Shown in pieces: positions 1,801 through 54,513 of a stretch of 64,000 nt of DNA (position 1 is the first letter of the stretch; each line of letters starts with the position of its first letter). The notes under the pieces are model-generated. The model saw only the letters and a program-made list of their open reading frames with translations. It did no database searches and was not told the DNA's origin. The DNA is from Gordonibacter massiliensis (ex Traore et al. 2017) (GTDB lineage Bacteria > Actinomycetota > Coriobacteriia > Coriobacteriales > Eggerthellaceae). A program made the position numbers and the translations under genes. The stretch covers positions 3,344,168 through 3,408,167 of the forward strand of contig LT827128.1 in the NCBI GenBank assembly GCA_900170005.1, given 5' to 3'.

Positions 1801-1859
1801 GCGCATCGAGGTGAGCCGACGCGGTCTCGGCAGGCTGCGTTCGAAGAAAGAAAGGAAGT

Positions 1860-37078: not shown

Positions 37079-38161
37079 TTAGGCGGGCACCACCATTATG
37101 TAGTAGATCCACTCGCACAGCTCCCGCGCGACGGCCACCTTGGCCTTGTTGGCCGGGACCTTCCGCTCCCTCAGACGCTCCCTTCTCTTCTTGAGGCGGG
37201 AGGCGCACTTCTCCACCTTGGCGCGCACGGCTTCGGGGATGCGCCCGTCCTCCAGCTTCACCGCCTTCACGCGGTTGGAGTAGCATCCGGCCGCCTCCAT
37301 GAGCAGGCGCCGCAGGTGCGAGTTGCCGGTTTTCGCGATAGGGCCCCGCGCCTCTTTGGCCCCGCTGGAGCTCTCGGAGGGGACGAGGCCGACGAACGAG
37401 GCGAAGGCCGAGCCTTTCGAGAATCGGTGGAAGTCGTAGACCTCGCACACGAGCGCGAACGCGGTGACCTTGCCGATGCCGTGGATGCACAAAAGCCGCT
37501 CCATGGCCTTGGACACGTCGGGCGAGCCGGCCGCCGCCCGTTCCATCTCGTCCTCGATCTCGCGCAAGCGCTCCTCGCAGCGCAGGGCGGCGTTGACCTT
37601 CGAGCGGAATGCGAACGTGTCCCCCTCGCAGGGGAACTCGTAGGCGGCCGACCACTCGTAGAACCTCTTGGTCCAGCGCTTCTTGGTGAGCGTGTAGGAG
37701 GTGCGGGTGAGCAGCAGGAACGAGGCGACCCGTTGCCGCGCCCGCTTGAGGTCGCGCGCCGCCTCGTCTCGCAGCCTCGAGAGGTGGCACAGGGACTCCT
37801 GCTCGGGCGTGGGGATGTAGACCGCCCTTACCGAGCCCGCCGCCGCCATGCGGGCGAGCCACTGGGCGTCGCGCTTGTCGTTTTTCTGCTTGTCGGTCCT
37901 TCGGGGGAGCTTGGAGGCGGCGGCCACCGTGCAGGGGACGCCCGCCTCGACGAGCGCGCGGGCGAGGCCGAAGCCGGTGGGCCCCGACTCGTAGACGCAA
38001 TGCACGGGTTTGGCGAAGCCGCCCTTTTCAATCCAAGAGACGAGCTGGTCCGGATCGGCGGAAAGGGTGGCCTGGGTGATCTCGCCTGTCTTGGTATCCA
38101 GCGCGCAGACGGGGTTCTTCCTTGCATGCGTGTCGATGCCGACAATGGTAGAATACCTCAT
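37079..38161 (-). CDS. IS110-family transposase (DEDD recombinase)
   Basis: 360 residues, full length. The N-terminal RuvC-like domain shows the DEDD residues: VGIDTHARKN (Asp), YESGPTGFG (Glu), KNDKRDAQWLA (two Asp). A coiled region follows. The C-terminal Transposase_20 domain has LLCIHGIGKVTAFAL (helix-hairpin-helix) and LVPSESSSGAK with the Ser that acts as nucleophile in this family, then GNSHLRRLLMEAA. No frameshift, so it looks intact. AAGGAGG stands 5 nt before the ATG but is paired to an upstream complement (see regulatory entry). Confidence 0.93.
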   Translation of the reverse strand: MRYSTIVGIDTHARKNPVCALDTKTGEITQATLSADPDQLVSWIEKGGFAKPVHCVYESGPTGFGLARALVEAGVPCTVAAASKLPRRTDKQKNDKRDAQWLARMAAAGSVRAVYIPTPEQESLCHLSRLRDEAARDLKRARQRVASFLLLTRTSYTLTKKRWTKRFYEWSAAYEFPCEGDTFAFRSKVNAALRCEERLREIEDEMERAAAGSPDVSKAMERLLCIHGIGKVTAFALVCEVYDFHRFSKGSAFASFVGLVPSESSSGAKEARGPIAKTGNSHLRRLLMEAAGCYSNRVKAVKLEDGRIPEAVRAKVEKCASRLKKRRERLRERKVPANKAKVAVARELCEWIYYIMVVPA

Positions 38162-38971: not shown

Positions 38972-40495
38972 CTACCGCTCCGAGAACATTTGCATGAGTT
39001 CCTTCTTGTTGTGCACGCCCAGCTTGTCGTAGGCGTTCTTGCTGTGGAACTTCACCGTGCGCTCGGTGATGAACAGCTCCTCGGCTATGCCTCCCAACGT
39101 CTGCCCGTCGATGATCATGGCCACGATCTCGCGCTCGCGCTCCGTCAACCCGTAGGGCTCCATCAGCTTCAGCTGGTGCGCGCGCAACGCCTCGCGGATA
39201 TCCTCGAGCGAAAGCGGCTCGGGTTCCGCGGCGGACTCGGCCGCGCGCTGCTCGGCTCCCAGCTGCCTGATGCGCAGCACCATGTAGAGGATGGCCAGCA
39301 CGGCCACGAAGGCGATGACGACCGTGGCCGTGCTGGTGAGGGTTTCGAACCCTATCCCCAGACTCTTGTTGATCCATGCGCCCAGGTACGGCACGTACAG
39401 GGTGCCGCTGCCCAGGATAAGCAGGGCGAAGCAGGGCACGAAGGGCAGGCGCGCATCGGCTATCTCGCGCGGGAACACGATCCAGCAGAGGATGACCAGG
39501 CAGTTCTTCGCGCTCAGCACCATGCCGAGCGCCGTGGTCATGGTGCCCGGCAGCTTCATGGAGAACAGCAGCAGCCCGCCGACGAGCAGGATGAGGGCGA
39601 TGCCCGCCATGAGCTGCATGAGCAGCGCGGGGTTGCGGGGCTTGGCCGGTTCCGAGGAGCCGTCCGGCTCTGCAAGCTCGTCGGTCGGCGCCCCTTTCCG
39701 CCCCGCTTCGGCCTTCTTGGAAGGGAAGTACAGCAAGCCTCCCGCGCCGATAAGCAGCAGCCCCGCGACGGTGAGGGCCAGCATGCTGGTTGTGACGATG
39801 TTCGAATTCGTGAGATAGGGGTTCGCCGTCAGGCCGCTGAAGAGCGAGGCCGCGAACGTGCACAGGCACAGAACGACGATGAGCATCCACGGCAATCGGC
39901 GCAGCGCGTCGGGGTCGATCGGCTCGAATGTGAAGAACCCGTTGCTGGCCGTGTGGAGCGCGCGATCGGCCTCGTCTCCCACGGCCTCCGTCCCGTCTTT
40001 TCCCAGCGCGCGGAACAGGCAGATGCCGGAGCAGGCGGGAAGCGCTATCGCGGCCAAAGGCGTCATCTGGGAACTCAGAAGCGAGCACGCGAAGAGCAGG
40101 GCTGCCGAGCAGAGTCCCGCCGCGCACGCCAGAGGGATGAGGGCGCGATAGCTGAACAGGGTAAGCCGCTCGCCCCACGCCACGACGAGCAGGGCCCCGC
40201 AGCCCATCTGCAGGCAGAAGAACAGCAGCCGGACGCCCTCGCTTCCGGCGAACGCGTATCCGAACCCGCAGGCGCTCGCAACAAGGGAGGCCCCCAACAA
40301 GAACTTTCGTCCGGGCTCCACGGCCAACAGTCGGTTCAGAAGCCCGTGCAACAGCAACGTGATGGCGAACACGGCGCAGACCGCCGCGCTGCCGTTATGC
40401 ACGGCGGCATCGCGCGCAAGGCACAGGTAGTCACTCGTTTGCAGCCAAGCGAGCAGACTCGAGAAGCCAAGAAATGTCACCAGGTTGTAAGGCAT
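38972..40495 (-). CDS. LuxR-family regulator with 12-helix membrane N-terminus
   Basis: 507 residues: about 12 hydrophobic helices with a charged loop (about 225-250), then a LuxR helix-turn-helix (YGLTEREREIVAMIIDGQTL; ELFITERTVKFHSKNAYDKL). Start at 40495 is preferred: TATACT lies exactly 6 nt before it with no ribosome site, suggesting a leaderless message; a longer frame begins at 40522. It is divergent from the large surface-protein locus and is its most likely local regulator. Confidence 0.85.
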   Translation of the reverse strand: MPYNLVTFLGFSSLLAWLQTSDYLCLARDAAVHNGSAAVCAVFAITLLLHGLLNRLLAVEPGRKFLLGASLVASACGFGYAFAGSEGVRLLFFCLQMGCGALLVVAWGERLTLFSYRALIPLACAAGLCSAALLFACSLLSSQMTPLAAIALPACSGICLFRALGKDGTEAVGDEADRALHTASNGFFTFEPIDPDALRRLPWMLIVVLCLCTFAASLFSGLTANPYLTNSNIVTTSMLALTVAGLLLIGAGGLLYFPSKKAEAGRKGAPTDELAEPDGSSEPAKPRNPALLMQLMAGIALILLVGGLLLFSMKLPGTMTTALGMVLSAKNCLVILCWIVFPREIADARLPFVPCFALLILGSGTLYVPYLGAWINKSLGIGFETLTSTATVVIAFVAVLAILYMVLRIRQLGAEQRAAESAAEPEPLSLEDIREALRAHQLKLMEPYGLTEREREIVAMIIDGQTLGGIAEELFITERTVKFHSKNAYDKLGVHNKKELMQMFSER

Positions 40496-40591
40496 GGAGC
40501 CAGTATAGCGCCTGACGCCCATTGTTCGCCACTAACATTATTCTTTTACTCGAATAGTCAAAATACTGTCCCTAAAGTACAGGGCACGTTT

Positions 40592-40720: not shown

Positions 40721-43700
40721 ATGAGTCATTCCAAGCAGAAGAGTCATTGCGGAGGGGGTGCGATGAAAAGAGAGATCGCGGTATCGACGTCTCGAATGCC
40801 GGCGTTGTTCCGAGCGTTCGTAGCGCTGGTGCTGTGCATGGGGCTCATGGTCCCGTCCACGCTGACGACCAACAAGGCGTACGCGGCGACCGACGCGACC
40901 TACGAGGGCGTCAAAGCCCAACTTCTTCCCGATTACAACCACGGGACGATCAGCGTATCGTCTGTCGATGCCCAGGATGATGTGATCGAGCTCGAAGTGG
41001 GCGAAACGGCCACGATCACCGTGGACCCGTACCAGCATGTGCAGTACAAGGGCTGCCGGATGTGGGACAAACCCTGTCCGAGCGGGTGCGAGGATATGGT
41101 ACCCGGCGGCGGCGAGTGTTTTGTTCCGGGTCTCGGTTGCAAGTGTGACCAGACTCCTTCGCTTGAGACCGCCGATGTGACGGCGACGCCCGGCGACGGC
41201 TCCATTATCGCCGTTGGTTCGCCTGTTGCCGACGGCGATATCGCCGCGTCAGAGGCGGGGACGAAGAACAAGGCTTCCGTCACGGTTACGGCCGAGGCTC
41301 CCGGAGAGACGACGTTGAACGTGGGAGCCGACGGCCTGTACTTCTGGTATGGGGCAAGCAAGACGTACACGGTCAGGGTTGCCGAGCGTGACACGACGGC
41401 TCCCACCGTCAAGGCCGACCAGAAAATCCAGCTGCGCCAGGCCGGCGACACCGGCACCGCTCGTGTTTCGCTGGAGGGCGCGAGCCAAGAGTGGGCAGAC
41501 AAGGTCGAGTCGGTGTCCGTCGAAGCCCTCAGCGGCGACGACGCGGGTTCCGTGAGCGCTCTGTCCGCCGAGCAGTACGCGGTGGATGCCAAGAACGGCC
41601 GCATCACTTTCAACCGCACCGAGGCAAACCCGGTCTTCTCCGTCGCGCCGGGCGAGGGTGACCCGATCGACGTTGCCGCATGGGGCAGCACCACGACCTA
41701 TCCGCAGTCCAAGCAGTACAAGGTGACCGTCGAAGCCGACGGCTACGCCGATGTGGTAGGCGACGTGACGGTGTATACGGGCGCTGCCACCACTTTCTCT
41801 ATCGTGGTGGACGAGGACGGTAGCGACGAGACGACCGACGACCGCACGGTCGTGAAGACCTACACCAAAGACGAGATCGAGCGGATGTCTACGTTCCAGA
41901 ACGGCTCGTCGCAGTGTGGTATGACCGGTTTCCGCACGTTCTCCGCCAAGGGCGTCGCCCTGGCCGACCTCATCGCGAGCGCTGGCGTCGAAGTGAGCGA
42001 CAAAGATGCGTTCAAGCTCGACACGACCGACGACTTCGGTCGCATGTGGAGCTACTCGCAGCTGTTCGGCGACCGCTACTTCCTGCAAAGCATCTACGAC
42101 GACCCGGACATGAAGGCCGCTTATGCCGAGCTCGTCGCTTCCGACGACGAGGCGGGTGCAACCGTCGAGCTTCGCAAGCTGTTGGCGAGCAAGGCCGTGG
42201 AGGACAACTCCATCGCCAAGCCCATGATTTCGGCGAACTACGCCGAGACCATGATCTCGTCCGACCAAGTGGCTAGTGCGGTGCTTCCCACCGAGGACAA
42301 CACGAAGATCAACGAGCTCGTTGGTGCCGAGAACCAGTATCGCTTCACCTACGGCATATCCCTGGTGCAGGAGGACTGCACGGTGTCGTTCGCGGGCGAG
42401 GGTGTCGACGTGGAGCCCCAGACGGTGAAGAGCCACCTGATGACCTCCACCGAGAACACCACCATCCGTTCGACCTACTGGAACAACGCGCTCGTTATCT
42501 ACAAGAACGCAGCCGAGCCCGTCGAGCCCAGCACGGCGGCCGACAGGATCGCCAAGCCGGCCGACCCGGTGCGCGAGGGCTACGCCTTCGGCGGCTGGTA
42601 CACCGACGAGGCCTGCACCGACGGCAACGAGTTCGACTTCGAGGCCAACGACGGCACGGTGGAAGCGTCCACCACGCTCTACGCCAAGTGGGTGCAGGAC
42701 GGACTCGAAGGCCTGGAGAGCCCGCATGACTACCCGTCGAACTTCGATCAAACCTATACCTACACCATGGCTGACGCCGGCGAGTTCGGCATGGCTGTGA
42801 CCTTCGACGCCAAGACCGCGACCGAGTCGAACTACGACTTCATCTACGTTTACGACGGCAATGACAACCTGCTCGGCACGTACTCGGGCACCGAGCTTGC
42901 CGGCAAGACGGTCTACGTGCCGCAGTCCGACACCGTCAAGATCCGTCTTACCTCCGACTCGTCGGGCAACAAGTGGGGCTTCAAGGTGACGGGCGTTCAA
43001 GCGCTCACCGAGAACAACATCGGGCTTGTTGGGGCCGTCGCCCCCATCTCGGCCCAGTTCATGACCGATGGGGCCGCAAAGCCCGAGCCTGTGGTCACCT
43101 ATGGCGCCAAGACGCTGGTCAAGGGCGACGACTACACCGTGACCTACCAGGACAACACCGCGGTCGGTACGGCCAAGGTCGTCGTGACCGGTGCGGGCAT
43201 CTACACCGGCTCCATCGACCGCGAGTTCCAAGTGGTCGACGCCGATCATCCGGCCGAAGGCGCCACCGTCAAGGCCGGCCAGAAGGTCCTGCTTCGCCAG
43301 GCCGGCGACACCGGCACGGCGCGCGTGTCCCTGGAGGGCGCGACCCCCGAGTGGGCCAACGCGGTCGAGTCCGTCACGGTGACCCCCGTCGTGGACGGCG
43401 TCAAGGGCGAGCCCCAGACGCTCTCCGACGGCCAGTACTCCGTGGACGCCGCCAGCGGCCGTGTGACCTTCACGCGCACCGCGGACGAACCGGTGTTCTT
43501 CATCGCCGCCGGCGAGGGCGAGCCGATCGACATCGCGGGCATGCGCGGCACGACCACCTATCCGCAGTCCAAGGTCTACGAGGTTTCCGTCAAGGCCGCC
43601 GGCTACGCTGACGCGGCCGGCGAGGTGTCGTTCTACACCGGCACCTCTGAGAAGTTCTCCATCATCGTGGACGAGGACGGCAACCCCGACACCACCGGCG

Positions 43701-46561
43701 ACCAGACGGTTGCCGGGTCCTGGACCGCCGACGAACTCAAGGACCTCGGCGGCTTCGGCTTCCAGAACGGCTCGTCGCAGTGCGGCATGACCGGCTTCCG
43801 CACGTTCTCCGGCAACGGCGTCTCGCTGGCGGACCTGCTCGAGGAGTGCGGCGTCACGGTGTCCGAGAGCGACGCCTTCCTGCTGGACACGTCCGACCAC
43901 TACGGCAACAACTTCACCTACGACAGCCTGTTCGGCGCCCAGCGCTACTTCCTGGCGGGCATCTACGACGACGACTTCAAGGCGAAGTACGCCGAGCTCG
44001 TCACCTCCGACGACGAGGCCGGCGCCACCGTCGAGCTGCGCCGCCTGCTGGCGGCCAAGGCCCTGGAGGACGGCTCCACCGTCGAGCCGATGGTGTCCAC
44101 CGGCTACGCCGAGACCATGATCTCGTCCGACCAGGTGGCCGACGCGGTGCTGCCGACCGAGGAGAACACGGCCATCAACCCTCTGGTGTCCCTGGAGAAC
44201 CAGTTCCGCTTCATCTACGGCATCAAGCTCGCCCAGGACGACTGCACGGTCACGTTCGCGACCGGCGACGGCTCGGCGGTCGAGCCCCAGACGGTGAAGA
44301 GCCACCTGATGACCTCCACCGAGAACACCACCATCAAGTCCAGCTACTGGGCCAACGCCCTGTACGTCTACCGCGGCAAGGGCGCGCCCGTCGAGCCCAG
44401 CACGGCGGCCGACAGAATCGCCAAGCCGGCCGACCCGGTGCGCGAGGGCTACGCCTTCGGCGGCTGGTACACCGACGAGGCCTGCACCGACGGCAACGAG
44501 TTCGACTTCGAGGCCAACGACGGCACGGTGGACGCGAGCACCACGCTCTACGCCAAGTGGGTCGAAGCCGAGCCGGTCGAGGATATCGACCTCGGCATGA
44601 CGTTCCCCGCCGATCCCGGCACGGTATCGACCGACATGGGTCGCAACCCGGCTGGCAAGGTGAATTTCAGCCTGAAGCCGTCCGACGACGCTTTCGCTGC
44701 CTACCAGGCGGCGCATGCCGACGCGACGAAGAAGGACATGCTGCAGGCATGGATCGACGGCATCACGTCCGTGACCATCGACGGGGTTAAGCTCGAGGGC
44801 AAAGCCTTCAGCGAGTGGAAAAACGAGCTGACCAACGCCGCCGATGACGCGGGCAAGCTCAAGTACTACGAGATTACGGCCGGCACTTCGTCGGCATCGG
44901 TGGCGCTACCCGTCGCGCTCTTCGACACCACGTCGAGCGAGACCGACACCAAGACGCTCGCCGTGGAGTCCACGGGCTTCGCGGCCGTGTCGGGCGACGT
45001 GACGTATCGCAACATCGGTGCGGAGGACCTCGTCGTGCGCGTGCTCGACGAGAACGGCGCCGTCCAGTCCACGAAGGTGCTCACTCAGGACCAGTTGAAG
45101 AGCCTGAACGTGCAGAAGCGCTACAACACCAGCGCCAACTGCGGCATGGCGGGCCTGCGCTCCTATACGAGCGAGGGCGTGCTGCTGACCGACGTGCTTG
45201 ACGCGGCCGGTGTCGAGTTCGGTCCCGGTATGACGCTCAAGCTGCGCGTGAACGACCAGCTTGATGCGAACGGCGATGCGTCGACCGCCGAGGACGGCTA
45301 TATCGGCAACGCCCAGTTCTCGTACGACTACCTGTTCGGCCAGCCGCGCTACTATTATCCAGCCGGGTGGGACGACGCCACGACGTATCCCGAACTGGGA
45401 GGCAAGACCATCTACAGCTTCCTTTCCCAGGACATGCGCGCCTGGAAGGGCGACGACGAGCAGTCCAAGACGCTTGCCAAGCTCATAGGTGCAACCAAGG
45501 AGGAAGTGCAGCCGATTCTCGCTTGGTCGTGGAACGAAGGCGTTGTGGCTTGGGACGGCGCGAACCCGTCTGCGGTCAACGGCTACAACGGCTACACGGA
45601 TCAGGAAACGTATCGCTTCCTCTTCGGCATGAAGGCGGCCGATGACGGTTCCATCACCGACGACAACACCACGTTCTCCAACACGTACGCCGTGTTCGGC
45701 ATGGACGTCGTGGCCGGTGAAGTCGACGAGCCCGGAACGTACGGCATCACCTACAACCTCGACGGAGGCGTGAACGCGACCTCCAACCCGGCCACGTACA
45801 CGGTTGGCACGGCCGTGCAGCTGGCGGCTCCGACCAAGGACGGCTACACGTTCGACGGTTGGTACACCGATGCGTCGTTCTCCAATCGGGTGACCGAGAT
45901 AGCCGCAGGCGTGTCCGGCGATGTCACGCTTTACGCGAAGTGGGTCAAGAACGCCGATCCGACTCCCGAGCAGCCTGCTACCGGCACCAAGACCGATCCG
46001 GCGACGGGCGTTGCGGCGAGCGGCTCCGTGCTCGCTCCTGGCGGCAGCGCCGCCGACGGCAGCTTGAAGGTGTCGGAGATGCTGTCCTCGAGCGACCGCT
46101 TCCAGGAGTTGAAGTCGAAGTACGCACCGGCGAACAACCTGCTGTTCAAGGTGTTCGACGTGTCCCTGCAGAACCTGAACGGCGTTGAGATCACCGACTT
46201 GGGCGCCGACGGGCTCACGCTCACGTTCCCTGTAGGGGCCGAATACAACGGCAAGCCGGGCACGATCATCCATCTGCACAAGAACGCAGACGGCACGGTG
46301 TCCGAGCAGCGCAGCGCCGACGGCCAGAAGGTGGTCGACGGCAAGCTGTCCATCTCGGGCGTCAAGAACTTCTCCGAGTTCGTGGTGATGGTGAACGACA
46401 GCATCGCGACCGCAGGAGGAAACGCGTCCGGTACGACGTTGACGAAGACGGGCGACAGCCTGCCGATAGTGCCCATCGCCTGCTTCGGTGGAGCGGCCGC
46501 GCTGCTGTTGGCGCTGGCCGTGCTCGCCCGCCGTCGCGACGGCATGGACGAGAGGGGCTAG
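40721..46561 (+). CDS. 1946-residue modular surface protein (six-Cys domain, HID-like, CUB-like and InlB-type repeats)
   Basis: Signal peptide about 1-55 (ends NKAYA). Order: six-cysteine Ig-like domain about 75-225 (C-R-M-WDKP-C start); HID/DUF1533-like domain (ending YKVTVEADGYADV); a first large module with the motif QCGMTGFRTF; InlB-type repeat (FGGWYTDEACTDGNEF); CUB-like domain (YDFIYVYDGND); a tandem-repeat Ig domain (LVKGDDYTVTYQDNT); second HID-like, second CGM module and InlB repeat; a third, more diverged set (NCGMAGLRSY); C-terminal sandwich domain; TLTKTGDSLP, one helix and RRR. The end resembles a cell-wall or membrane anchor without a canonical LPxTG. HID domains bind hemoproteins in streptococcal Shr, so hemoprotein capture is a hypothesis. 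First gene of the locus. ATG at 40721 has AAAGGAG 9 nt upstream. Confidence 0.85.
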   Translation: MSHSKQKSHCGGGAMKREIAVSTSRMPALFRAFVALVLCMGLMVPSTLTTNKAYAATDATYEGVKAQLLPDYNHGTISVSSVDAQDDVIELEVGETATITVDPYQHVQYKGCRMWDKPCPSGCEDMVPGGGECFVPGLGCKCDQTPSLETADVTATPGDGSIIAVGSPVADGDIAASEAGTKNKASVTVTAEAPGETTLNVGADGLYFWYGASKTYTVRVAERDTTAPTVKADQKIQLRQAGDTGTARVSLEGASQEWADKVESVSVEALSGDDAGSVSALSAEQYAVDAKNGRITFNRTEANPVFSVAPGEGDPIDVAAWGSTTTYPQSKQYKVTVEADGYADVVGDVTVYTGAATTFSIVVDEDGSDETTDDRTVVKTYTKDEIERMSTFQNGSSQCGMTGFRTFSAKGVALADLIASAGVEVSDKDAFKLDTTDDFGRMWSYSQLFGDRYFLQSIYDDPDMKAAYAELVASDDEAGATVELRKLLASKAVEDNSIAKPMISANYAETMISSDQVASAVLPTEDNTKINELVGAENQYRFTYGISLVQEDCTVSFAGEGVDVEPQTVKSHLMTSTENTTIRSTYWNNALVIYKNAAEPVEPSTAADRIAKPADPVREGYAFGGWYTDEACTDGNEFDFEANDGTVEASTTLYAKWVQDGLEGLESPHDYPSNFDQTYTYTMADAGEFGMAVTFDAKTATESNYDFIYVYDGNDNLLGTYSGTELAGKTVYVPQSDTVKIRLTSDSSGNKWGFKVTGVQALTENNIGLVGAVAPISAQFMTDGAAKPEPVVTYGAKTLVKGDDYTVTYQDNTAVGTAKVVVTGAGIYTGSIDREFQVVDADHPAEGATVKAGQKVLLRQAGDTGTARVSLEGATPEWANAVESVTVTPVVDGVKGEPQTLSDGQYSVDAASGRVTFTRTADEPVFFIAAGEGEPIDIAGMRGTTTYPQSKVYEVSVKAAGYADAAGEVSFYTGTSEKFSIIVDEDGNPDTTGDQTVAGSWTADELKDLGGFGFQNGSSQCGMTGFRTFSGNGVSLADLLEECGVTVSESDAFLLDTSDHYGNNFTYDSLFGAQRYFLAGIYDDDFKAKYAELVTSDDEAGATVELRRLLAAKALEDGSTVEPMVSTGYAETMISSDQVADAVLPTEENTAINPLVSLENQFRFIYGIKLAQDDCTVTFATGDGSAVEPQTVKSHLMTSTENTTIKSSYWANALYVYRGKGAPVEPSTAADRIAKPADPVREGYAFGGWYTDEACTDGNEFDFEANDGTVDASTTLYAKWVEAEPVEDIDLGMTFPADPGTVSTDMGRNPAGKVNFSLKPSDDAFAAYQAAHADATKKDMLQAWIDGITSVTIDGVKLEGKAFSEWKNELTNAADDAGKLKYYEITAGTSSASVALPVALFDTTSSETDTKTLAVESTGFAAVSGDVTYRNIGAEDLVVRVLDENGAVQSTKVLTQDQLKSLNVQKRYNTSANCGMAGLRSYTSEGVLLTDVLDAAGVEFGPGMTLKLRVNDQLDANGDASTAEDGYIGNAQFSYDYLFGQPRYYYPAGWDDATTYPELGGKTIYSFLSQDMRAWKGDDEQSKTLAKLIGATKEEVQPILAWSWNEGVVAWDGANPSAVNGYNGYTDQETYRFLFGMKAADDGSITDDNTTFSNTYAVFGMDVVAGEVDEPGTYGITYNLDGGVNATSNPATYTVGTAVQLAAPTKDGYTFDGWYTDASFSNRVTEIAAGVSGDVTLYAKWVKNADPTPEQPATGTKTDPATGVAASGSVLAPGGSAADGSLKVSEMLSSSDRFQELKSKYAPANNLLFKVFDVSLQNLNGVEITDLGADGLTLTFPVGAEYNGKPGTIIHLHKNADGTVSEQRSADGQKVVDGKLSISGVKNFSEFVVMVNDSIATAGGNASGTTLTKTGDSLPIVPIACFGGAAALLLALAVLARRRDGMDERG
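42521..42663 (+). repeat. 143-bp internal direct repeat, copy 1
   Basis: Identical to 44390-44532 except for one base (AGGATC against AGAATC). It encodes EPSTAADRIAKPADPVREGY and the InlB-type repeat. Recombination between copies would delete about 1.87 kb in frame. Confidence 0.95.
44390..44532 (+). repeat. 143-bp internal direct repeat, copy 2
   Basis: Second copy of the 42521-42663 repeat, one mismatch. The neighbouring GTGAAGAGCCACCTGATGAC segments before each copy are also nearly identical. Confidence 0.95.
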
Positions 46562-46705
46562 CTCCTTCGCCGGGTTTTGGCGAAAGGCGGCATGGAGGTT
46601 GTCTCGGAGGGCGGGACGCGGCCAGCGTTTCGCCCTCCCGGGGCGCATCGAGGGCCTGCGCGGTGTCTCGCGCGGGCAAGGCGAAGAAAGCTTAGGGGGA
46701 TTCAC

Positions 46706-48064
46706 GTGGTTTCGAAAACAGCCGTCAGAAGGGCTCGTCCCGACGCACGCGCATCGGCGCTTGGAATAGGGTTGGCGATCATGCTGGCGCTCGCGATGCT
46801 TCCGGCGCAGGCGTTCGCCTACTACAACCGGGGCAGCGTGTCGGTTGCTTTGGGAACCACGGCCATCGAGGTGCAGGCGGGGGCCACGGCGAGCGCGACC
46901 GTGTCCATCACGCCGTCGTCGGACGATCAGACCGAGGGGTGCGGCATGCCCAAGTGCCCGCAGGGGTGCGCCGAATCCTGCGCCGACGAGAACGGGCAGT
47001 GCCGTTGCTCCGGCCCCGACTACAAAACGTACTATCCCACGGCCGTGGCGTCGTCCAGCAACGCGAGCGTGGCCGTGGCCACCTACAGCGGAGGCGCGCT
47101 CACCGTGTACGGCAAGTCCGAAGGAGAGGCCGTCATCACCGTACGGGCCTCGCTGCGCCAGTTCACCGATGCCGAGGCTGCGCTCAAGGTGACGGTGTCG
47201 GGCACGGCTGTCGGTGCCCAAACGAGTTCGACGGCCTTCGTCGATGTGCCCGAAACGGCCACGGCAGACCAGGAGGACAAAGCCGCCTTCGTGGAGAAAA
47301 CTGTCATGGGCCGTCCCGTGCACAACGTGCGCATCGTCGACGGGTGCGACGCGGCCGGCCGCCTTGCGGAGATGGCCGGCGTCGACGGCGACGTGACGTT
47401 TTGGGAAGGCGACACGTACTACCATCCGAACTACTCGCTCACGTTCAACGGCACCACCTACGTTGCGTCCGCCGTGCAGCCCTTCGATGTGAGCCTTGCG
47501 GTGTCGACCGAGGCTGCGGGCGTGCTGAACCAGCCGCTTTCCGGCGTGCAGAACTTCGTGGCGGTCGATTTCGCCTGCAAGGGCGCGCTGCCCGCTCCCG
47601 CAACCGTGTACGCCCTGGCCGGAACCGCGCTCTCCGACGACGACGCCGTGGCGTTGTTCTCGTACGACAGCGCGGCGAAGGCGTTCGTGAAAGAAGACGC
47701 GCCCGCCGCCATGGTGGGCGGCTACGCCACGTTCACGGTGCAGGAAGGCAAGACCTACGTGGTTTCGTCGCGCGACCTGACGACGGAGGCCAAGGCCATC
47801 GTCATGGGCGGTTCGACCTCCGCCCAGCAGGGCGGCAGCTGCTGCGATCCCACGCCGGCCGCAGCGGCCACGACCGACGGCGCGTCGTGCTGCGACACGC
47901 CGAGCACCGCCATGGCCCCGATGGTTCCCCTTGCCATCGGCGTCATCGTGGTGGCGGCCGCGGCGGCCATCGTCGTGATCATCATGACCCAGCGCAAGGG
48001 CAAGGGCGCGGTGGAAGCTCCTGCTTCCCCGGCGGCCGACGCGAACGAGGAAGAAGGTCGTTAA
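46706..48064 (+). CDS. Membrane-anchored six-Cys domain protein with CC motifs (paralogue B)
   Basis: 452 residues from a GTG with AGGGGG 7 nt upstream. Signal peptide ends AQAFAYYN. The six-cysteine Ig-like domain covers about 50-170 (GCGMPKCPQGCAESC, then CRC). Residues about 195-365 form a second beta-rich domain (FWEGDTYYHPNYS, ATVYALAGTALSDDDAVALF) shared with the next protein. Then GGSCCDP and GASCCDT, two vicinal Cys pairs, one transmembrane helix (about 400-425) and a Lys/Arg-rich cytoplasmic tail. Probably anchored outside the membrane; the CC pairs could bind metal. Two nt before the next gene. Confidence 0.75.
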   Translation: MVSKTAVRRARPDARASALGIGLAIMLALAMLPAQAFAYYNRGSVSVALGTTAIEVQAGATASATVSITPSSDDQTEGCGMPKCPQGCAESCADENGQCRCSGPDYKTYYPTAVASSSNASVAVATYSGGALTVYGKSEGEAVITVRASLRQFTDAEAALKVTVSGTAVGAQTSSTAFVDVPETATADQEDKAAFVEKTVMGRPVHNVRIVDGCDAAGRLAEMAGVDGDVTFWEGDTYYHPNYSLTFNGTTYVASAVQPFDVSLAVSTEAAGVLNQPLSGVQNFVAVDFACKGALPAPATVYALAGTALSDDDAVALFSYDSAAKAFVKEDAPAAMVGGYATFTVQEGKTYVVSSRDLTTEAKAIVMGGSTSAQQGGSCCDPTPAAAATTDGASCCDTPSTAMAPMVPLAIGVIVVAAAAAIVVIIMTQRKGKGAVEAPASPAADANEEEGR

Positions 48065-48066
48065 CA

Positions 48067-49509
48067 ATGAACGGCATGAAACACCAGCGCGCGAATGCGC
48101 AGAGGGAAGGCGCGACGAAGTCGTATCGTGCCTGGACCGCCCCGGCGGCCATGTTGGCGGCTGCTTTGGCTCTCGCGCTTGCAGCCTGCCTCGTTCCCAC
48201 TACGAAGGCGGCTGCCTACTACAACTTCGGTACGGTGGGGGTGTACCCCGGCGGATCGTATCTGAGCGTGCAGGCTGGGCAGTCCACCAGCACCAGCATC
48301 AGCGTCGATCCGTCGTCGAGCGACCAGACGCTCGGCTGTGGCATGGCTAAGTGCCCGCAGGTTTGCACGAGCGAGGGAGCCACCGAGGCAGGATACACGT
48401 GCTTCGACGTGAACGGACAGTGCACGTGTGCCGGCACCTCGTATTCCACGTACTATCCCGAGGTGTACGCCTCGTCCAGCAACAGCGGCGTGGCAACCGC
48501 GTACGTGAGCGGCGGCACGTTGGTCGTCACGGGGAACTCGGCGGGATCCGCCACCATCACGGTGACGGCGTCGCTGCGTCAGTGGACGACGAACTCGGCT
48601 TCCATTCAGGTTGACGTGGTCGCACCGCCCACGTCGGGCGGGTCGACTTCGAGCGGCGGAGGCGGCGAGTCCCCGAGCTCGGAGGCTCCGGCCACGTCCC
48701 TTCCCGCAGCCAGCACGCCGTCGGCGGCGGGCGTACCTCAGGAGGCGACGGCCACCGAGTCCAAGGACGATGCGCTGAACGAAACCGTCATAGAGACGGT
48801 GGCCGGCAAGGTCATCGTGGTGGAGAAGAACAGCTTCCTCGAAACGCGCGTGCAATTCGAGAAGATCATCGGCACGAAAGACCAGGTCGTTTTCTGGTCC
48901 GGCTCCTCGTCCGATCGCCCCGACTACTCGTGGACGTTCGTGGGGGAAGACGTGTCCGCCGACAGCCCCTTTTTGGACTTCGATCCCACCATCACGGTGT
49001 CGAAGCTGGGCACCGGCAACGTGTCCAACATCATGAAGCAGGCCAAAGACGGTTTGGTTATGGAGTTCGCCCACGAGGGCGACCTCCCTGGCGAGGCGTC
49101 CGTCTACGTCAAGGTGGGCGACGCGTTCGCCGACGGTACCGAGTTGGGTTTGTTCTGCTTCGATGACAAGAGCAAGCGTTTCGAGCGCGTGCAGGATGGT
49201 CTGAAGGTCCAGGACGGCTATGTGTCGTTCAAGACCAACCACTGCTCCACCTGGGCGTTCTCCACCGACGATCTGGCGAGCTACGAAGTGGAGGAGACGA
49301 ACACGCCCGGCGCCGTCTCCGTGAACAAGCAAGACAACATCGCCGACGAGGGCTCGAACGGTTGGATCGTGCCGGTGGCCGTGGGCATCGTCGTCGTCGC
49401 GGCGGCGGTCGTCGTCGTCGTCGTGCTCGTGCGGCGCCGCAAGCGCGCCGACAACGAGGCGGCCGAGATGCCGTCGGTTGCCAAGGACGAGCCCGATGAC
49501 GCCCGCTAG
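48067..49509 (+). CDS. Membrane-anchored six-Cys domain protein (paralogue C)
   Basis: 480 residues. Signal peptide ends TTKAAAYYN; the six-cysteine Ig-like domain covers about 50-180 (GCGMAKCPQVC ... CTCAG). A Ser/Gly/Pro linker (about 195-240) leads to the second beta domain (FWSGSSSDRPDYSWTF, EASVYVKVGDAF, VSFKTNHCSTWAFSTDDL), then one transmembrane helix rich in Val (about 430-455) and RRRKR. It is a clear paralogue of the preceding protein but has no CC pairs. Its 3' end overlaps the next gene by 14 nt. Confidence 0.75.
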   Translation: MNGMKHQRANAQREGATKSYRAWTAPAAMLAAALALALAACLVPTTKAAAYYNFGTVGVYPGGSYLSVQAGQSTSTSISVDPSSSDQTLGCGMAKCPQVCTSEGATEAGYTCFDVNGQCTCAGTSYSTYYPEVYASSSNSGVATAYVSGGTLVVTGNSAGSATITVTASLRQWTTNSASIQVDVVAPPTSGGSTSSGGGGESPSSEAPATSLPAASTPSAAGVPQEATATESKDDALNETVIETVAGKVIVVEKNSFLETRVQFEKIIGTKDQVVFWSGSSSDRPDYSWTFVGEDVSADSPFLDFDPTITVSKLGTGNVSNIMKQAKDGLVMEFAHEGDLPGEASVYVKVGDAFADGTELGLFCFDDKSKRFERVQDGLKVQDGYVSFKTNHCSTWAFSTDDLASYEVEETNTPGAVSVNKQDNIADEGSNGWIVPVAVGIVVVAAAVVVVVVLVRRRKRADNEAAEMPSVAKDEPDDAR

Positions 49510-52500
49510 CGGGCGTGCAGCCGCCGCATGCGCGGCGGCTGCACGCCTTTGCCAAACGCTGCTCATAGCCTTGCTCGTCGCCTGCGCCGTCTCGACTCCG
49601 TCGCCCGCGTTCGCGGCGATGGGCGGCATGGGCGGTTCCGGCTCGTTTGAGGGCATGTCCTCGGACGGCGCCGTCGCGCAAAGCGCGAACGACGACCCGA
49701 ACGCGGAGCAGCTCGGCCTCATGCCGAAGCTCTTCCGCCTCACCGGCGAGAGCCGCGCGTCCCAGGGCGAGGGCAGCCTGCCCGTCGAGGGCGTGGGTGC
49801 CGTCTTCCCGAACCTGCTGTCTGTGAACACCACGCCCGCGTCCATCAACACGGGTATCGAGTGCCACATGGACGAGGTGTGCGGCTTCGACCCCTGCACC
49901 TGCGGCAAGCCCGACGCGTGGGGCCACTGCGCGTGCGGCGGCTTCCGCGAGACCGCCCCCACCGTGACCATATCCACGAGCGACGCCAACGTGGCGCAGA
50001 TCGTGCAGGCGTTCGGCCAGACGTGGATCCTGCCCGTCGGGCCCGGCACGGCCACGGTGCAGATCACGGCCGACCTCGTGCACTACCGAAGCGCCAGCTA
50101 CGCGTTCGACGTGGAGGTGGCGCCGTTCGGCGCGGTGGACGCCCTGCTCATCGCGGCGGCGTTCCTGTTGGCGGTGGGCGTTCTGGTGGGCCTGTTCTTC
50201 CTCGTGCGGCTCATCGTGCGCCTCGTGCGACGCAAGCTGGCCGAGCGCCGCGCCTGGAAGGCGCGCGGCGACGAGCTGAAGGAGGAGTTCCCTTTGACGT
50301 GGCGCGCCAAGCTCCAGTCCGAGAAATACGCGAAGTCCCCTCGCGGCCGGCGTCGGCGCGCGGGGCATCGCCGTCCGTTCGCGCACGACTTCCTGTTCTC
50401 GCTGCGCCAGGCGGCCCCGGTGCTCGTGGCCGCGCTCGCGCTGTTCGCCGTGCTCGTGCCGGTGTCCACCTCGGTGGTGAACGACATATCCGTGTTCAAC
50501 GTGAACTACACGCACGAGCAGTTGAAGTTCCAGTTCTACGCGCAGGAGCTCGCGCCCGTCGTCAACGCGGCGTGCGTGCTGTTTGGCGCCGTGCTGGCCG
50601 TGGTGCTGTTCCGCTTCCTGCTGGTGAAACGCGCCACCACGGCGTTCTTCTCGGTGGGCTTGTCGCGCGTGAAGCTGTTCTTCTCGCGCTACCTGGCCGG
50701 CGCCGTGTGCATCGTGGTCGGCATCGCCGTGCCGTTCGCCGTGTCGCTGTTGCTGAACCATCTGGCGCTCGGGCTCTACGACGGCGAGGTCCACGAGTTC
50801 TTCTATGTCACCTGCGGTTATATCACGGTGGCGCTCGCGGCGTTCGCGCTCGCGGGCATCGCCGTCATCTGCGCCGGCACGCTGTTCGAGACGTGCACGT
50901 TCGGCGTGGCGCTGCTGGCCAGCGTCAGCGTGGTGCTGTGGGGCGTGGGCGTGCTGGCCGACTACCTGCTGGTGGGCAACGCCTCGGGGGCGGCGCTCTA
51001 CGGCCAGGCGGTGCAGGTCGAGCCGTCGTTTTTGTCCCAGCTGTCGTATCTGAACCCGCTGCTGTTCTTCTCCGACGCGGGCGGTTCGCACCAGTTCTTC
51101 ATGGCGCTGCATCCCGTGTACTATCCCGTGTTCGGATCGTGGTCGCTCATCATCGGCTGGTTCGCGGCGTACCTGGCGCTCTCGGCGCTGGGGCTGGCGG
51201 CGTTCTGCCGCCGTCGCGGCGAGCAGGCCGAGATGGCGGGCAAGGCTCCCGTGTTCTCGCTCTTCTCCGTGGCCGTGCTGGGCCTGGCCGCCTTCGCCGC
51301 CGCCGTGGCCCTGCTGGGCTCGGTGGACGTGGCGGTGGCGCTCGTGGTGGGCGCGGCGCTGTTCGTGCTCGTGTCCCTCGTGCTGCTGTTCGGCCCCCTG
51401 CGCGGTCGCACTGCGCGCCGCACGACGCTCGCGTGCGTGGGCGGCGAGCTCGCAGCCATGGCGGCCGTTGTGACGGTGGTGGCCGGCGGGGCTTTCGGGT
51501 ACGCGGGCTTCGTCCCCGCCGCCGAGGACGTGGAGAGCGTGGAAGTGTCCTACAACGGCTCGCCCAGCTATCTCACGCAAGGCTTCTCGGGCGTGGCCAG
51601 CGGCTCGTCCTACTACTACACGTCGTACCGCAGCTACGGCCAGGAGTCGTCCGTCGACATCGTGCGCTCGCTGCACGGCCAGCTCATCGACTCGGCGCGC
51701 GCGGCGCGCGAGACGAACTACGAGGACTTCCAAAGCTCGGTCGTGCCCTACGACGTGGTGCTGCGCTACCGCATGAAGGACGGCGGGGACGTGGTGCGCT
51801 ACTACAACCAGGCCACGGTGGGCGAGCTTTCCGCCCTGCTGGCCCTGGACAACAACGCGCACACCCACGAGCTGGAGAACGCCGTGGTCACGGGCGATAC
51901 GAGCGGCTTGTCCGACGAGGAGCGCGAGGCGCTGTCGAAGTCGCCCTCGTACAACGCCTATCGCGCTGGCTACGTCTACCTGGGCGACGGCGCGCTCAAC
52001 CGCATCATGCAGGTGGAGTGCACCGACGAGGAGCGTGCCCAGCTCGTTGCCGCCTTGGCGCACGATTTGGCGAACACGAATGCGAACGAGCGCTACCTGC
52101 CGTCCAAGCCGGCCCGCGCCGCGCTCATGTTCACGCTGTCGCCCGAGCTGGACGTGGCCTCGTTCGGCTATTCGTTCAGCAACGCCGTCACCTACGTCAC
52201 GGACGACTGGACCGAGACCATGGCGTGGCTCGAGGGCAAGGGCCTCATCGACGCGTTGGGCGGGCAGCTGGACTCCAAGGTCATCGAGCAGCTCACGTTC
52301 CAGCTCGACGACCCCTACGCGTCCATCAACAAGGTCACGCAGCCGGTGAGCCGCTACTTCATGGCCTACCGCAGCGAAACGGCCGGCCAGTACTGGATCA
52401 CGCAGGACTACGGCGCCCTCAAGGTGGTCGACGAGCAGAGCAAGATCGCCGAGATCGTGCCGAACCTGCGCATGGGCTGCTACATGACGGGCGGCTACCT

Positions 52501-52579
52501 GGTGCAGGCGAAGCTGCGCGGCATCGAGGCGTACGTGTACTTCTACCTGCCGGCGGAGCTCGCGCCGTCGTATCTGTAA
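49496..52579 (+). CDS. ABC-2-like permease with N-terminal six-Cys domain (paralogue D)
   Basis: 1027 residues. Signal sequence about 1-35; six-cysteine Ig-like domain about 85-210 (ECHMDEVC, CTCGKPDAWG, CACGG); transmembrane helix about 215-240; basic cytoplasmic loop (about 245-300); then a multi-helix permease region (about 305-680) resembling ABC-2 or MacB-like proteins; a final extracellular domain of about 340 residues (starting about 685, VESVEVSYNGSPSYLTQ). The matching ATPase gene starts 10 nt downstream. The fusion of the shared domain to a permease argues that it takes part in ligand handling by this transporter. ATG at 49496 overlaps the previous gene. Confidence 0.75.
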   Translation: MTPASGRAAAACAAAARLCQTLLIALLVACAVSTPSPAFAAMGGMGGSGSFEGMSSDGAVAQSANDDPNAEQLGLMPKLFRLTGESRASQGEGSLPVEGVGAVFPNLLSVNTTPASINTGIECHMDEVCGFDPCTCGKPDAWGHCACGGFRETAPTVTISTSDANVAQIVQAFGQTWILPVGPGTATVQITADLVHYRSASYAFDVEVAPFGAVDALLIAAAFLLAVGVLVGLFFLVRLIVRLVRRKLAERRAWKARGDELKEEFPLTWRAKLQSEKYAKSPRGRRRRAGHRRPFAHDFLFSLRQAAPVLVAALALFAVLVPVSTSVVNDISVFNVNYTHEQLKFQFYAQELAPVVNAACVLFGAVLAVVLFRFLLVKRATTAFFSVGLSRVKLFFSRYLAGAVCIVVGIAVPFAVSLLLNHLALGLYDGEVHEFFYVTCGYITVALAAFALAGIAVICAGTLFETCTFGVALLASVSVVLWGVGVLADYLLVGNASGAALYGQAVQVEPSFLSQLSYLNPLLFFSDAGGSHQFFMALHPVYYPVFGSWSLIIGWFAAYLALSALGLAAFCRRRGEQAEMAGKAPVFSLFSVAVLGLAAFAAAVALLGSVDVAVALVVGAALFVLVSLVLLFGPLRGRTARRTTLACVGGELAAMAAVVTVVAGGAFGYAGFVPAAEDVESVEVSYNGSPSYLTQGFSGVASGSSYYYTSYRSYGQESSVDIVRSLHGQLIDSARAARETNYEDFQSSVVPYDVVLRYRMKDGGDVVRYYNQATVGELSALLALDNNAHTHELENAVVTGDTSGLSDEEREALSKSPSYNAYRAGYVYLGDGALNRIMQVECTDEERAQLVAALAHDLANTNANERYLPSKPARAALMFTLSPELDVASFGYSFSNAVTYVTDDWTETMAWLEGKGLIDALGGQLDSKVIEQLTFQLDDPYASINKVTQPVSRYFMAYRSETAGQYWITQDYGALKVVDEQSKIAEIVPNLRMGCYMTGGYLVQAKLRGIEAYVYFYLPAELAPSYL

Positions 52580-52589
52580 GGGGGCGCCC

Positions 52590-53321
52590 ATGATAGAGGT
52601 GGCGAACATATCGAAGCGCTTCGGGGCCTTCACGGCGCTCGAGGACATCACGCTCACCGTGGCCGACGGCATGGTGTACGGCTTGGTGGGCTACAACGGG
52701 GCGGGCAAGACCACGCTGCTGAAGATCATCGCCGGCGTGTACAAGCCCGACGCCGGCGAGGTGCATATCGACGGCGTGCCCATGCACAGCGACCGGGTGA
52801 GCCACGACTCGCTGTTCATCGTGGCCGACGAGCCGTACTTCCTGCCCCAGGCCACGCCCGAGACCATGCGCTCGTTCTACCGCGGCTACTACCCGCACTG
52901 GTCCGACGACGTCTACGAGCGCATGCTGGCCCTGTTCGGCCTGGACCCCTTGGCGAAGGTCACGGGCTTCTCGAAGGGCATGCAGCGCCAGCTGGGCATT
53001 CTGCTGGGTTTCGCCACGGGCGTGAAGACCATGCTTTTGGACGAGAGCTTCGACGGGCTGGACCTGGGGAAGCGCAACCTGCTGAAGCGGTTGCTGAAGA
53101 CGTACGCGCACGAGCGCGGGGCCTCGGTCATCCTGTCGTCGCACAACCTGCGCGAGCTGGAGGACGCGGCCGACCATCTGGGCATGATAAAGGGATGCCG
53201 GTTGACGTTCGACGGCAGCGTGGCGGACGTGCACGAGCAGTATCCGGGGTCGTCTTTAGAGGAGATATTCCTGTCCGAGGGCGGGAATAGGGTTGAGGAA
53301 ATCGATGGCATTTTCGCTTGA
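52590..53321 (+). CDS. ABC transporter ATPase, partner of the six-Cys permease
   Basis: 243 residues. Walker A GYNGAGKTT (about 36-44), Q-loop region replaced by FIVADEPYFLP, signature FSKGMQRQ, Walker B MLLDESFDGLDLG and H-loop LSSHN. This GxSKGMQRQ signature is usual in ATPases of ABC-2-type exporters such as bacitracin or YtrB-like systems. It likely drives the permease encoded immediately upstream. Confidence 0.92.
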   Translation: MIEVANISKRFGAFTALEDITLTVADGMVYGLVGYNGAGKTTLLKIIAGVYKPDAGEVHIDGVPMHSDRVSHDSLFIVADEPYFLPQATPETMRSFYRGYYPHWSDDVYERMLALFGLDPLAKVTGFSKGMQRQLGILLGFATGVKTMLLDESFDGLDLGKRNLLKRLLKTYAHERGASVILSSHNLRELEDAADHLGMIKGCRLTFDGSVADVHEQYPGSSLEEIFLSEGGNRVEEIDGIFA

Positions 53322-54513
53322 AAATCGGGTGGTGGCCGCAGGGGTCTGGGACTCGGGGGCACGGCGCTCGGGCAGTCCTGGCTCGCACGAACAGCCCGCA
53401 GGGCTGTTCGGCTCGTGCGGAATCTCGCGGCGCGCCCCCGAGTCCCAGACCCCTGCGGGGGGCCCGCTTTGTCGGCTGGGTGAGGGGAGAATACAGCGGA
53501 GCGCCTTCGGCGCTTGTTTTGGAAGGATGTTCCGTCCTGCACTGGGCCAAGGTTCTGCGGCCCGTCATCCCGCACGGAGCCGAAGCGCCACCCCCTGTCA
53601 TCCTGAGCGGAGCGCGTCAGCGCGGAGTCGAAGGATCCCGCGCGGTGCCAACTGCGACGCTCCCGAGCAAAACCAAAGCGCCGCCCCCTGTCGTTTCGGG
53701 GAAAGCAAAAACGCCATCCCCTGTCCTCCCAAGGGAAGCCGCAGCTCCACCCTTTGTCATCCTGAGCGGAGCGCGTCGGCGCGGAGTCGAAGGATCCCGC
53801 GCGGCGTCAGCCATGGCGTTTCCTCAGGGGGCCGCCACGGTTGCGCAGCCCTCGCGGGCGGTTTCGCGGCCTGGCGCCTCTTCTTCCTCGCTCTCGTCTT
53901 GGCGTTCGCGACCTGCTTGGCGTTCGCCTCGCCGGCTTTCGCGCTTTCCTCCACGGCGGATCGCGTTGTGGAGCCGGTCGAGGTGCTGCGGGTCAGTGCC
54001 GGGGCGTTCGGCTCGGAGTCGGCGGCGGTCGTCGCCGACAGGGCGGGGGAGCTGGCGTTGCCGCGGTTTTGCCCGACGGCGCTTTCGGCGGAGTGCGACC
54101 CCGCGTCCATCGAGGCGGGCGTCGATTGCGGCATGGATTGGATGTGCGGCATCGAACCTTGCCTGTGCGGCTCGGCAGACGCGTGGGGCGGGTGCTCGTG
54201 CAACGGGCTGGAGACGACGTCGCCCACCGTGTCTTACGCATCGTCCGACGAGGGCGTCGTGCGGGTGGAGGAGGCGGCGGGGCGGGTGTGGCTCGTGCCC
54301 GTCGCGCCCGGCACCGCCACCGTCACCTGCACGGCTTCGCTCAAGCACTTCGCCGATACCGAAGCGCGCCTTGCGGTGACCGTGGGCGGTCCGACGCTCG
54401 CCGACGGCGTGCTCGCGGGCCTGTGCTTGCTGACGATCGCGCTGATCGCGGCGTGCGTGCTGCTCGTCCATCGCGCGATGAAGCGGAGGAGGCGCCATGC
54501 GAGCCTTTCGTAG
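53305..54513 (+). CDS. Short anchored six-Cys domain protein with repeat-encoded N-terminus (paralogue E)
   Basis: 402 residues if read from the ATG at 53305, which overlaps the ATPase gene by 17 nt and has GAGGAA 6 nt upstream. Residues 1 to about 170 are a translation of palindromic and dispersed repeats (two PERSASARSRRIPRG units), not a recognisable domain. The functional part starts with a signal helix (LFFLALVLAFATCLAFASPAFA split: LFFLALVLAFATC, LAFASPAFA), then the six-cysteine domain (about 268-355: DCGMDWMCGIEPCLCG, CSCNG), one helix and a KRRRR tail. No ATG, GTG or TTG lies close before the signal helix in frame. The TAG stop is supplied by the TAGGG element. It may be fused to repeats or be a decaying gene. 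Confidence 0.6.
   Translation: MAFSLENRVVAAGVWDSGARRSGSPGSHEQPAGLFGSCGISRRAPESQTPAGGPLCRLGEGRIQRSAFGACFGRMFRPALGQGSAARHPARSRSATPCHPERSASARSRRIPRGANCDAPEQNQSAAPCRFGESKNAIPCPPKGSRSSTLCHPERSASARSRRIPRGVSHGVSSGGRHGCAALAGGFAAWRLFFLALVLAFATCLAFASPAFALSSTADRVVEPVEVLRVSAGAFGSESAAVVADRAGELALPRFCPTALSAECDPASIEAGVDCGMDWMCGIEPCLCGSADAWGGCSCNGLETTSPTVSYASSDEGVVRVEEAAGRVWLVPVAPGTATVTCTASLKHFADTEARLAVTVGGPTLADGVLAGLCLLTIALIAACVLLVHRAMKRRRRHASLS
53336..53458. repeat. Palindrome with 25-bp perfect arms
   Basis: The arm 53336-53360 (CCGCAGGGGTCTGGGACTCG...) is perfectly complementary to 53434-53458. The interior has a second hairpin (CGCACGAACAGCCC...GGGCTGTTCG...CGTGCG). It begins 15 nt after the ATPase stop yet is open in the frame of the next protein. 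Confidence 0.9.
53595..53647 (+). repeat. GTCATCCTGAGCGG dispersed repeat, copy
   Basis: TGTCATCCTGAGCGGAGCGC, stem GCGCG-TCA-GCGCG, then GTCGAAGGATCCCGCGCGG. Near-identical to 53754-53811; related to 33361-33417 with a different, still self-complementary stem. Confidence 0.85.
53754..53811 (+). repeat. GTCATCCTGAGCGG dispersed repeat, copy
   Basis: Second copy in this gene; differs from the first by one base in the loop (TCG against TCA). Both are read in the same frame by the overlying gene. Confidence 0.85.

Follow-up and report, generated by a model that had tools for sequence, protein, structure and literature searches.

PruR is a periplasmic protein with a sulfite oxidase (SUOX)-type fold which lacks the molybdenum-ligand cysteine, carries a tryptophan at that position, and binds small pterins. 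As reviewed in PMC13259868, this molybdenum-free fold can use a shortened cleft to bind a small pterin, with Asn/Asp102, Tyr/Phe104, and Trp160 at the pterin site, and can signal to a partner protein; extracellular pterins are described there as common around bacteria. Like the modules that we describe here, which we call CGM modules, PruR (7kom, 7kos, 7rkb, and 7kp2) is exported and, as is probable for these modules, stands outside the enzymology of the molybdenum cofactor (Moco). PruR, however, consists of one domain of ∼170 residues, is encoded together with a DcpA/DTB regulator in an operon of two genes, and has a Trp where the enzymes have the ligand Cys, whereas the surface protein of this locus, SURF, has three copies in one anchored protein and the CGM modules have Cys in all eight cases. 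The SUOX enzymes themselves (sulfite oxidase, MsrP, and SorT; PF00174) share the fold and the KGVxLxDLL helix with the CGM modules, but the latter score under the Pfam cutoff, contain inserts that lie after the RYF strand but ahead of the last strand, and sit in multidomain surface proteins in which no RR export motif was seen.

Two further systems resemble other parts of SURF. Shr of Streptococcus pyogenes, for whose second HID an Arg-Tyr heme-contact dyad is described (PMC10912661), has PF07550 HID-like domains, as SURF does before copies 1 and 2, but SURF has no NEAT family at E ≤ 1 in Pfam scans and no heme uptake genes were found among the neighbors scanned. Internalin B has InlB-type repeats, of which SURF also has three, although no leucine-rich repeats were found in SURF by Pfam. 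In the open-access literature we found no paper on SURF or on Gram-positive surface modules with a SUOX fold.

Layout and repeats of the surface protein

SURF is encoded in a window of 64,000 nucleotides, the whole stretch of DNA that was analyzed, from a Gordonibacter genome that consists of a single contig of 3.95 Mb. Its frame of 1946 residues reads from the first ATG to the end as originally predicted (Table 1); a second possible start, the ATG at 40763, would give 1932 residues, and all residue numbers given here count from that ATG. Pfam recognizes InlB repeats, one CUB, and a Shr-like HID in this protein, with a weak match to PEGA besides. The putative C-terminal sorting signal reads LTKTGD instead of LPXTG, and the genome has one sortase over the cutoff.

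Table 1. Positions of the features of SURF and of neighboring genes in the window
Feature	Position	Strand	Basis
IS110-family transposase, between modC and mop	37079..38161	-	
Divergent membrane-bound LuxR-type regulator	38972..40522	-	next to SURF in 4 genomes
SURF, surface protein, 1946 aa	40721..46561	+	ORF opened by ATG 40721
N-terminal secretion signal, without RR (twin-arginine) motif	40721..40885	+	sequence reading and RR check
Cys-rich Ig/Big_2-like domain, common to SURF and downstream genes	40934..41383	+	alignment, motif scan
HID-like domain 1	41393..41782	+	PF07550, own profile
SUOX-fold module copy 1 (CGM), residues 341-582	41783..42508	+	own-genome search, profile, hhalign
Invariant Cys385 of copy 1	41915..41917	+	sequence, alignments
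InlB-type repeat 1	42515..42694	+	PF09479
CUB-like domain, within insert of ∼185 residues	42716..42991	+	PF00431, comparison with L004
HID-like domain 2	43259..43642	+	Pfam, own profile
SUOX-fold module copy 2 (CGM), residues 961-1205	43643..44377	+	own-genome search, profile, hhalign
Invariant Cys1007 of copy 2	43781..43783	+	sequence, alignments
InlB-type repeat 2 (97% identity with repeat 1)	44384..44563	+	Pfam, DNA repeats
Domain before copy 3, HID-like by position only, not significant	44588..45019	+	own profile
SUOX-fold module copy 3 (CGM), residues 1418-1653	45014..45721	+	profile, predicted structure
Invariant Cys1460 of copy 3	45140..45142	+	sequence, alignments
InlB-type repeat 3	45734..45946	+	PF09479
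Sortase-signal-like LTKTGD, followed by a hydrophobic segment and an RRR tail	46439..46456	+	sequence reading
g2, Cys-rich membrane-anchored surface protein	46577..48064	+	
g3, relative of g2, Cys-rich surface protein anchored in the membrane	48061..49509	+	
g4, ABC permease whose extracellular domain is Cys-rich	49478..52579	+	
ABC transporter ATPase, best matches exporter-like	52590..53321	+	
g6, open frame with fifth copy of Cys-rich motif at 54127	53293..54513	+	motif scan

The feature itself, three related modules of ∼240 residues predicted from the motifs QCGMTGFRTF, found at residue 384 and again at 1006, and NCGMAGLRSY, found at residue 1459, is real. One profile, A2, finds all three at full length with per-module E values of 1.1e-78, 2e-79, and 5.8e-80, scores that show extent and not independent detection since the A2 alignment included the three SURF modules; the rows of A1, too, include copies of the query protein. 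With copy 1 alone as the query, a search of its own genome returned copy 2 (69% identity, E 9.5e-94) and copy 3 (36%, E 2.9e-6) and nothing beyond them. By alignment, copies 1 and 2 are 67% identical, and they share the stretch PMxSxxYAETMISSDQV, present in these two only as had been noticed before; the identity of copy 3 to each of them is 33%. Also as predicted, each copy is followed by an InlB-type repeat (PF09479, three stretches, E 2.1e-40), and a CUB domain occurs once, between copies 1 and 2 (PF00431, E 1.5e-5, over the cutoff). Together with the ∼85-residue stretch that follows it, the CUB domain makes up the insert, which is absent from Gordonibacter sp. 28C.

The likeness of the first two units is far beyond chance because their DNA repeats are 71-97% identical and spaced 1860-1869 bases apart. 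InlB repeats 1 and 2 are 97% identical in this genome and 98% identical in 28C, with 88-90% identity between the genomes, whereas HIDs and modules 1 and 2 are 60-68% alike within the genomes and 91-93% alike between them. Since the InlB repeats, unlike the HIDs and modules, are more alike within than between genomes, this pattern points to gene conversion that would be confined to the spacer.

An HID-like domain had been placed ahead of each copy, and this holds for copies 1 and 2 but not for copy 3. A profile built from HIDs 1 and 2 plus those of 28C and of a further genome, G234, gave 231-233 bits to HIDs 1 and 2. The region ahead of copy 3 reached 1.2 bits (i-E 0.074), and a reversed sequence up to 4.2 bits. 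When the region before copy 3 was compared with the HIDs by hhalign, the probability was 4% and the score 20.6, and unrelated alignments scored 12.6 and 16.6.

Fold of the CGM module and its invariant cysteine

The original prediction had likened the module to a molybdopterin-oxidoreductase-like (SUOX) fold, and that guess was right. Two independent kinds of evidence, profile-profile comparison and predicted structure, agree, and to our mind this settles that the CGM module has the SUOX fold, although the model is too modest for residue detail. Against seven bona fide PF00174 domains, the eight-member CGM clade had an hhalign score of 32.1 (E 2.7e-4, probability 42%), compared to 10.9-16.3 for ten column-shuffled alignments of the clade. 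The 23 relatives without the CGM Cys scored 50.9 against PF00174 (E 6.5e-8, probability 95%; shuffles, 7.8-13.1), and unrelated HID, Cys-rich, and C-terminal alignments scored 10.8-17.1. Furthermore, a profile of 31 modules with no PF00174 enzyme in it found two cytochrome-linked PF00174 proteins (3.3e-8 and 1.7e-7) in the small frame set of collected loci. Left out of the 31-module set were L033, L036, and L038, which have long inserts, the bona fide PF00174 proteins L045 and L046, the own-genome paralogue L055 with its 28C counterpart L056, and second matches without a locus.

AlphaFold2 was run on copy 3 with an input of six sequences, drawn from the window and from L004. The best of the five models had a mean pLDDT of 62.6 and a pTM of 0.69, with pLDDT values of 34-44 for the other four, and its best structural matches were sulfite-oxidase-like chains. 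Foldseek placed PruR 7kom first (E 1.3e-3, probability 0.97), rows 1-12 being all of the SUOX fold. In VIA, plant sulfite oxidase (1ogp) reached a Z of 10.0 over 142 residues at 3.7 Å and PruR 7kom a Z of 9.8 with 127 of 134 residues aligned at 3.5 Å; the first 20 rows, from Z 10.0 to 5.4, were all of the SUOX fold, and the next had a Z of 4.6. For this predicted structure, plant sulfite oxidase and PruR are tied as the best matches.

By direct sequence search, PF00174 (Oxidored_molyb) reached 13.9 bits on SURF against a cutoff of 24 (E 0.04), the genome had no PF00174 matches at E ≤ 0.001, and profiles A1, A3, and A10 found no solved SUOX relative of the module. A match of A10 to dipeptidyl-peptidase (E 3.4e-4) was discarded, as it is confined to the N-terminal part of the profile and is not to a SUOX protein, and so were matches of A4 to sulfite dehydrogenases (2.6e-4 to 5e-3), since A4 contained two bona fide PF00174 rows. 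The broad A5 profile, made without such rows, found only a sulfite dehydrogenase among the solved structures (E 0.59).

The module was also said to have lost its cofactor site, which is too strong, since the invariant CGM Cys is at or next to the molybdenum-ligand position. In all eight CGM modules (three here, three in 28C, and one each in G035 and G234) this Cys lies exactly 12 residues ahead of the glycine of the GVxLxDLL helix. In the K-12 record of Escherichia coli MsrP, Cys146 of the precursor, which we take to be the molybdenum-ligand Cys102 of the mature protein, lies 12 residues ahead of GFPL, and seven Coriobacteriia PF00174 domains have a Cys 17 or 18 residues ahead of the helix glycine. 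MAFFT under four settings put the CGM and PF00174 cysteines in one column, or 0-2 columns apart with all 31 modules, an exact identity of column that is partly drawn by the aligner, which tends to pair Cys with Cys; unguided hhalign also pairs the two. Among the other relatives, 22 of 23 have no Cys at 9-20 residues ahead of the helix, and the remaining one (G075) has a Cys 18 residues ahead, the spacing of the Coriobacteriia PF00174 enzymes. Because the CGM clade forms one group in the tree (support 100/98), one gain or one retention would suffice to explain this distribution.

The part of that claim which probably stands concerns the cofactor itself. Folded, cofactor-loaded enzymes leave the cell by the Tat (twin-arginine) route. 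No RR was found by a plain RR search, as distinct from a Tat predictor, in the first 67-75 residues of the surface proteins of this genome (G000), 28C, and G234, while E. coli MsrP has an RR in its signal region. Since these signal regions have no RR, SURF should, judging from Tat biology, leave the cell unfolded, and it is likely that no molybdenum cofactor is loaded in the cytoplasm. In the G035 surface protein, the MNHxK...GG N terminus and the signal peptide are in different frames (L015, about 7600-7900), which may reflect a frameshift, an assembly error, or another start.

Relatives of the module and the conserved operon

Relatives were found in 6 of 60 near-relative genomes with the A1 profile and in 28 of 396 Coriobacteriia genomes, or 22 of 153 genera, with A2; in two of the 28, what matched was a bona fide PF00174 protein. 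Across the phylum, relatives turned up in 15 of 396 genomes sampled, and one scan of viral contigs returned none. No dedicated family for them was found in Pfam scans. Most relatives that were read as proteins are secreted and multidomain, with ricin-B lectin, CWB2, chitobiase-C-like, dockerin-like, and Big_2 domains beside them in other Coriobacteriia, and in G108, G382, and G074 the module is itself repeated 2-3 times. NF041762, the NCBIfam family of a GEGP-motif dihaem protein, has matches, far under its cutoff, to the SUOX-like part of L041, L043, and L044, three distant relatives, but none in SURF.

Several other proteins came to light in these searches. The genome encodes a second secreted protein with a SUOX-like module, without the CGM Cys (L055, 3812500-3819500 of the genome, at 1845-3908), which has PASTA-like and Big_2 domains and adjoins another LuxR-type membrane regulator. 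In other Actinomycetota (L078-L086), membrane or secreted proteins with tandem, seemingly cofactor-less SUOX-like domains make up a wide unnamed family. In L045, L046, L049, L050, and L052, multihaem c-type cytochromes form fusions with PF00174 domains in which the molybdenum-ligand Cys is retained; their cofactor state is puzzling because different routes of export are required for the attachment of heme and for the loading of Moco.

The same locus is found in Gordonibacter sp. 28C, where the neighboring proteins are 90-99% identical. The LuxR-type regulator, SURF, g2, and g3 are syntenic in four genomes (this one, 28C, G035, and G234), and the permease and ATPase as well as the upstream Mrp, amidohydrolase, and ModD are also kept in the other three, as far as the stretches reach. 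The permease occurs at an identity of at least 81% in 4 of 138 genomes of the family, the same four that carry SURF; three other genomes of the family have homologues of 38-44%, and three other Gordonibacter genomes have neither permease nor SURF. Synteny in four genomes and the co-occurrence of permease and SURF argue that SURF and its neighbors form a working unit. SURF is the variable part of this unit, G035 and G234 having one module and 36-39% identity while the flanking proteins are 57-93% identical.

A motif of six cysteines, set into a Big_2-like domain, recurs on the plus strand in SURF (41054), g2 (46940), g3 (∼48370), g4 (49862), and g6; the four domains of SURF, g2, g3, and g4 were aligned, the g3 copy being seen in the alignment only and that of g6 by motif scan. 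The motif scan did not find it in the SURF of G035 or G234, and no family names this motif in the scans made. Further downstream, a lipoprotein (54634-55497, plus strand) has a C-terminal half related (E 4e-6) to an N-terminal region of the G234 surface protein.

All four loci have ModD, and Mop occurs in both Gordonibacter loci. Between modD and mop, this window contains modABC and the IS110 element; because modABC is not adjacent in the other three loci, we give the molybdate genes little weight.

Likely function of the modules

We consider it probable that the CGM modules are SUOX-fold domains which are no longer molybdenum enzymes and which serve as extracellular binding domains within a conserved operon. 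A secreted, membrane- or wall-anchored receptor or adhesin would present the three domains on Ig-like and InlB spacers and would work with the Cys-rich surface proteins and ABC transporter of the operon. By analogy with PruR, the ligand might sit in the old pterin cleft, and a signal could then be passed to partners, either the Cys-rich proteins or the transporter. Binding is preferred over catalysis because relatives adjoin lectin or cell wall domains and are themselves repeated; ligand binding as such is likely, be it of a small molecule, a protein, or a glycan, bound molybdopterin is presumably absent, and a pterin as the ligand is a guess with the odds well against it. Against this reading stand the modest model of copy 3, the poor one of HID 1 with copy 1, and the failure of copy 1 and its kin to match a solved SUOX structure by sequence, and a simple loss of the site is at variance with the Cys that the CGM modules, unlike PruR, retain at the ligand position.

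The main alternative, a possibility of some substance though we would not bet on it, is that SURF is a plain adhesin whose modules are structural or bind protein or glycan, with no small ligand and the SUOX fold as a scaffold only. The InlB repeats, CUB, Ig-like domains, and anchor fit this, as do the lectin and cell wall domains beside relatives and a module number that changes fast, from three in Gordonibacter to one in G035 and G234, next to flanking proteins of 57-93% identity; what suggests a specific site, however, is the Cys of the CGxxGxR-type motif, invariant in all eight modules. We are more doubtful that each module acts as a PruR-like receptor that holds a small, tetrahydromonapterin-like pterin in a truncated SUOX cleft, so that SURF or its operon partners would respond to gut pterins. 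PruR is the best match in Foldseek and tied best in VIA, where sulfite oxidase nevertheless scores as well, and pterins are described as common around bacteria (PMC13259868). The seven A2 rows all have an Asp after the helix and second strand, where PruR would have Asn/Asp102 and Tyr/Phe104, copies 1 and 2 reading DDF and DHY at the supposed 102-104 site, and a W stands ahead of the last strand in six of eight CGM modules (A in copy 3), equivalences that are assumed and not taken from an alignment to PruR. Against a pterin receptor, PruR has Trp and not Cys at the ligand position, and no DcpA-type regulator adjoins SURF among the neighbors scanned; Pfam found no GGDEF/EAL or kinase among the neighboring genes, the GGDEF-EAL gene of the window being 26 kb away. 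Searches for PruR sequences (tblastn of plasmids and PF00174 on six rhizobial/Ruegeria replicons) returned at most ordinary PF00174 proteins over the cutoff.

Three readings that involve a metal or heme appear improbable. The invariant Cys could be a working ligand with which the modules, after Sec export, capture thiolate-bound molybdopterin, tungstopterin, heme, or a metal from the cell's surroundings, making SURF a receptor that scavenges or senses released cofactor; SURF does lie near molybdate genes, with modD in all four loci, yet we would give this little credence. Even less can be said for a heme or hemoglobin receptor of the Shr kind, the link that had been suggested for the HIDs and which we find to be without support beyond the Pfam name. 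PF07550 scores 44.5 bits on SURF against a cutoff of 22.3, with three stretches at E ≤ 1 and a place given for the best only, but the G035 HID falls under the cutoff and the G234 protein has no match at E ≤ 1, no NEAT domain was found in SURF at E ≤ 1, and the HID profile found no Shr chain among solved structures. A poor model of HID 1 with copy 1 (53.4, pTM 0.49), in which the absence of Shr chains from the best 50 VIA rows excludes nothing, gave Tp47 (residues 208-332, Z 7.7) as the best match of the HID part. A link to Tp47 has no sequence support either, and a Z under 8 may reflect a common arrangement; in the open-access literature we found no connection of Tp47 with sulfite oxidase. It is most unlikely, finally, that the modules are working molybdo- or tungstoenzymes in which the Cys ligates a Mo/W-pterin for redox chemistry on a surface substrate. 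The Cys at the ligand column with its MsrP-like spacing, ModD, Mop, and the ModABC of the window would agree with such an enzyme, but the signal region lacks RR, PF00174 stays under its cutoff, Pfam found no redox partner domain in SURF, and ModABC is not beside SURF in the other three loci.

The binding domains that we favor would provide, besides PruR, a second setting, this one Gram-positive, in which a molybdenum-enzyme fold serves outside catalysis, with the fold serving surface proteins as a repeated module. In one clade, a Cys at or next to the metal position was retained or has been recovered, and this poses a sharp experimental question. Should pterins be what the modules bind, an extracellular pterin receptor would exist in Gordonibacter of the gut and in its relatives.
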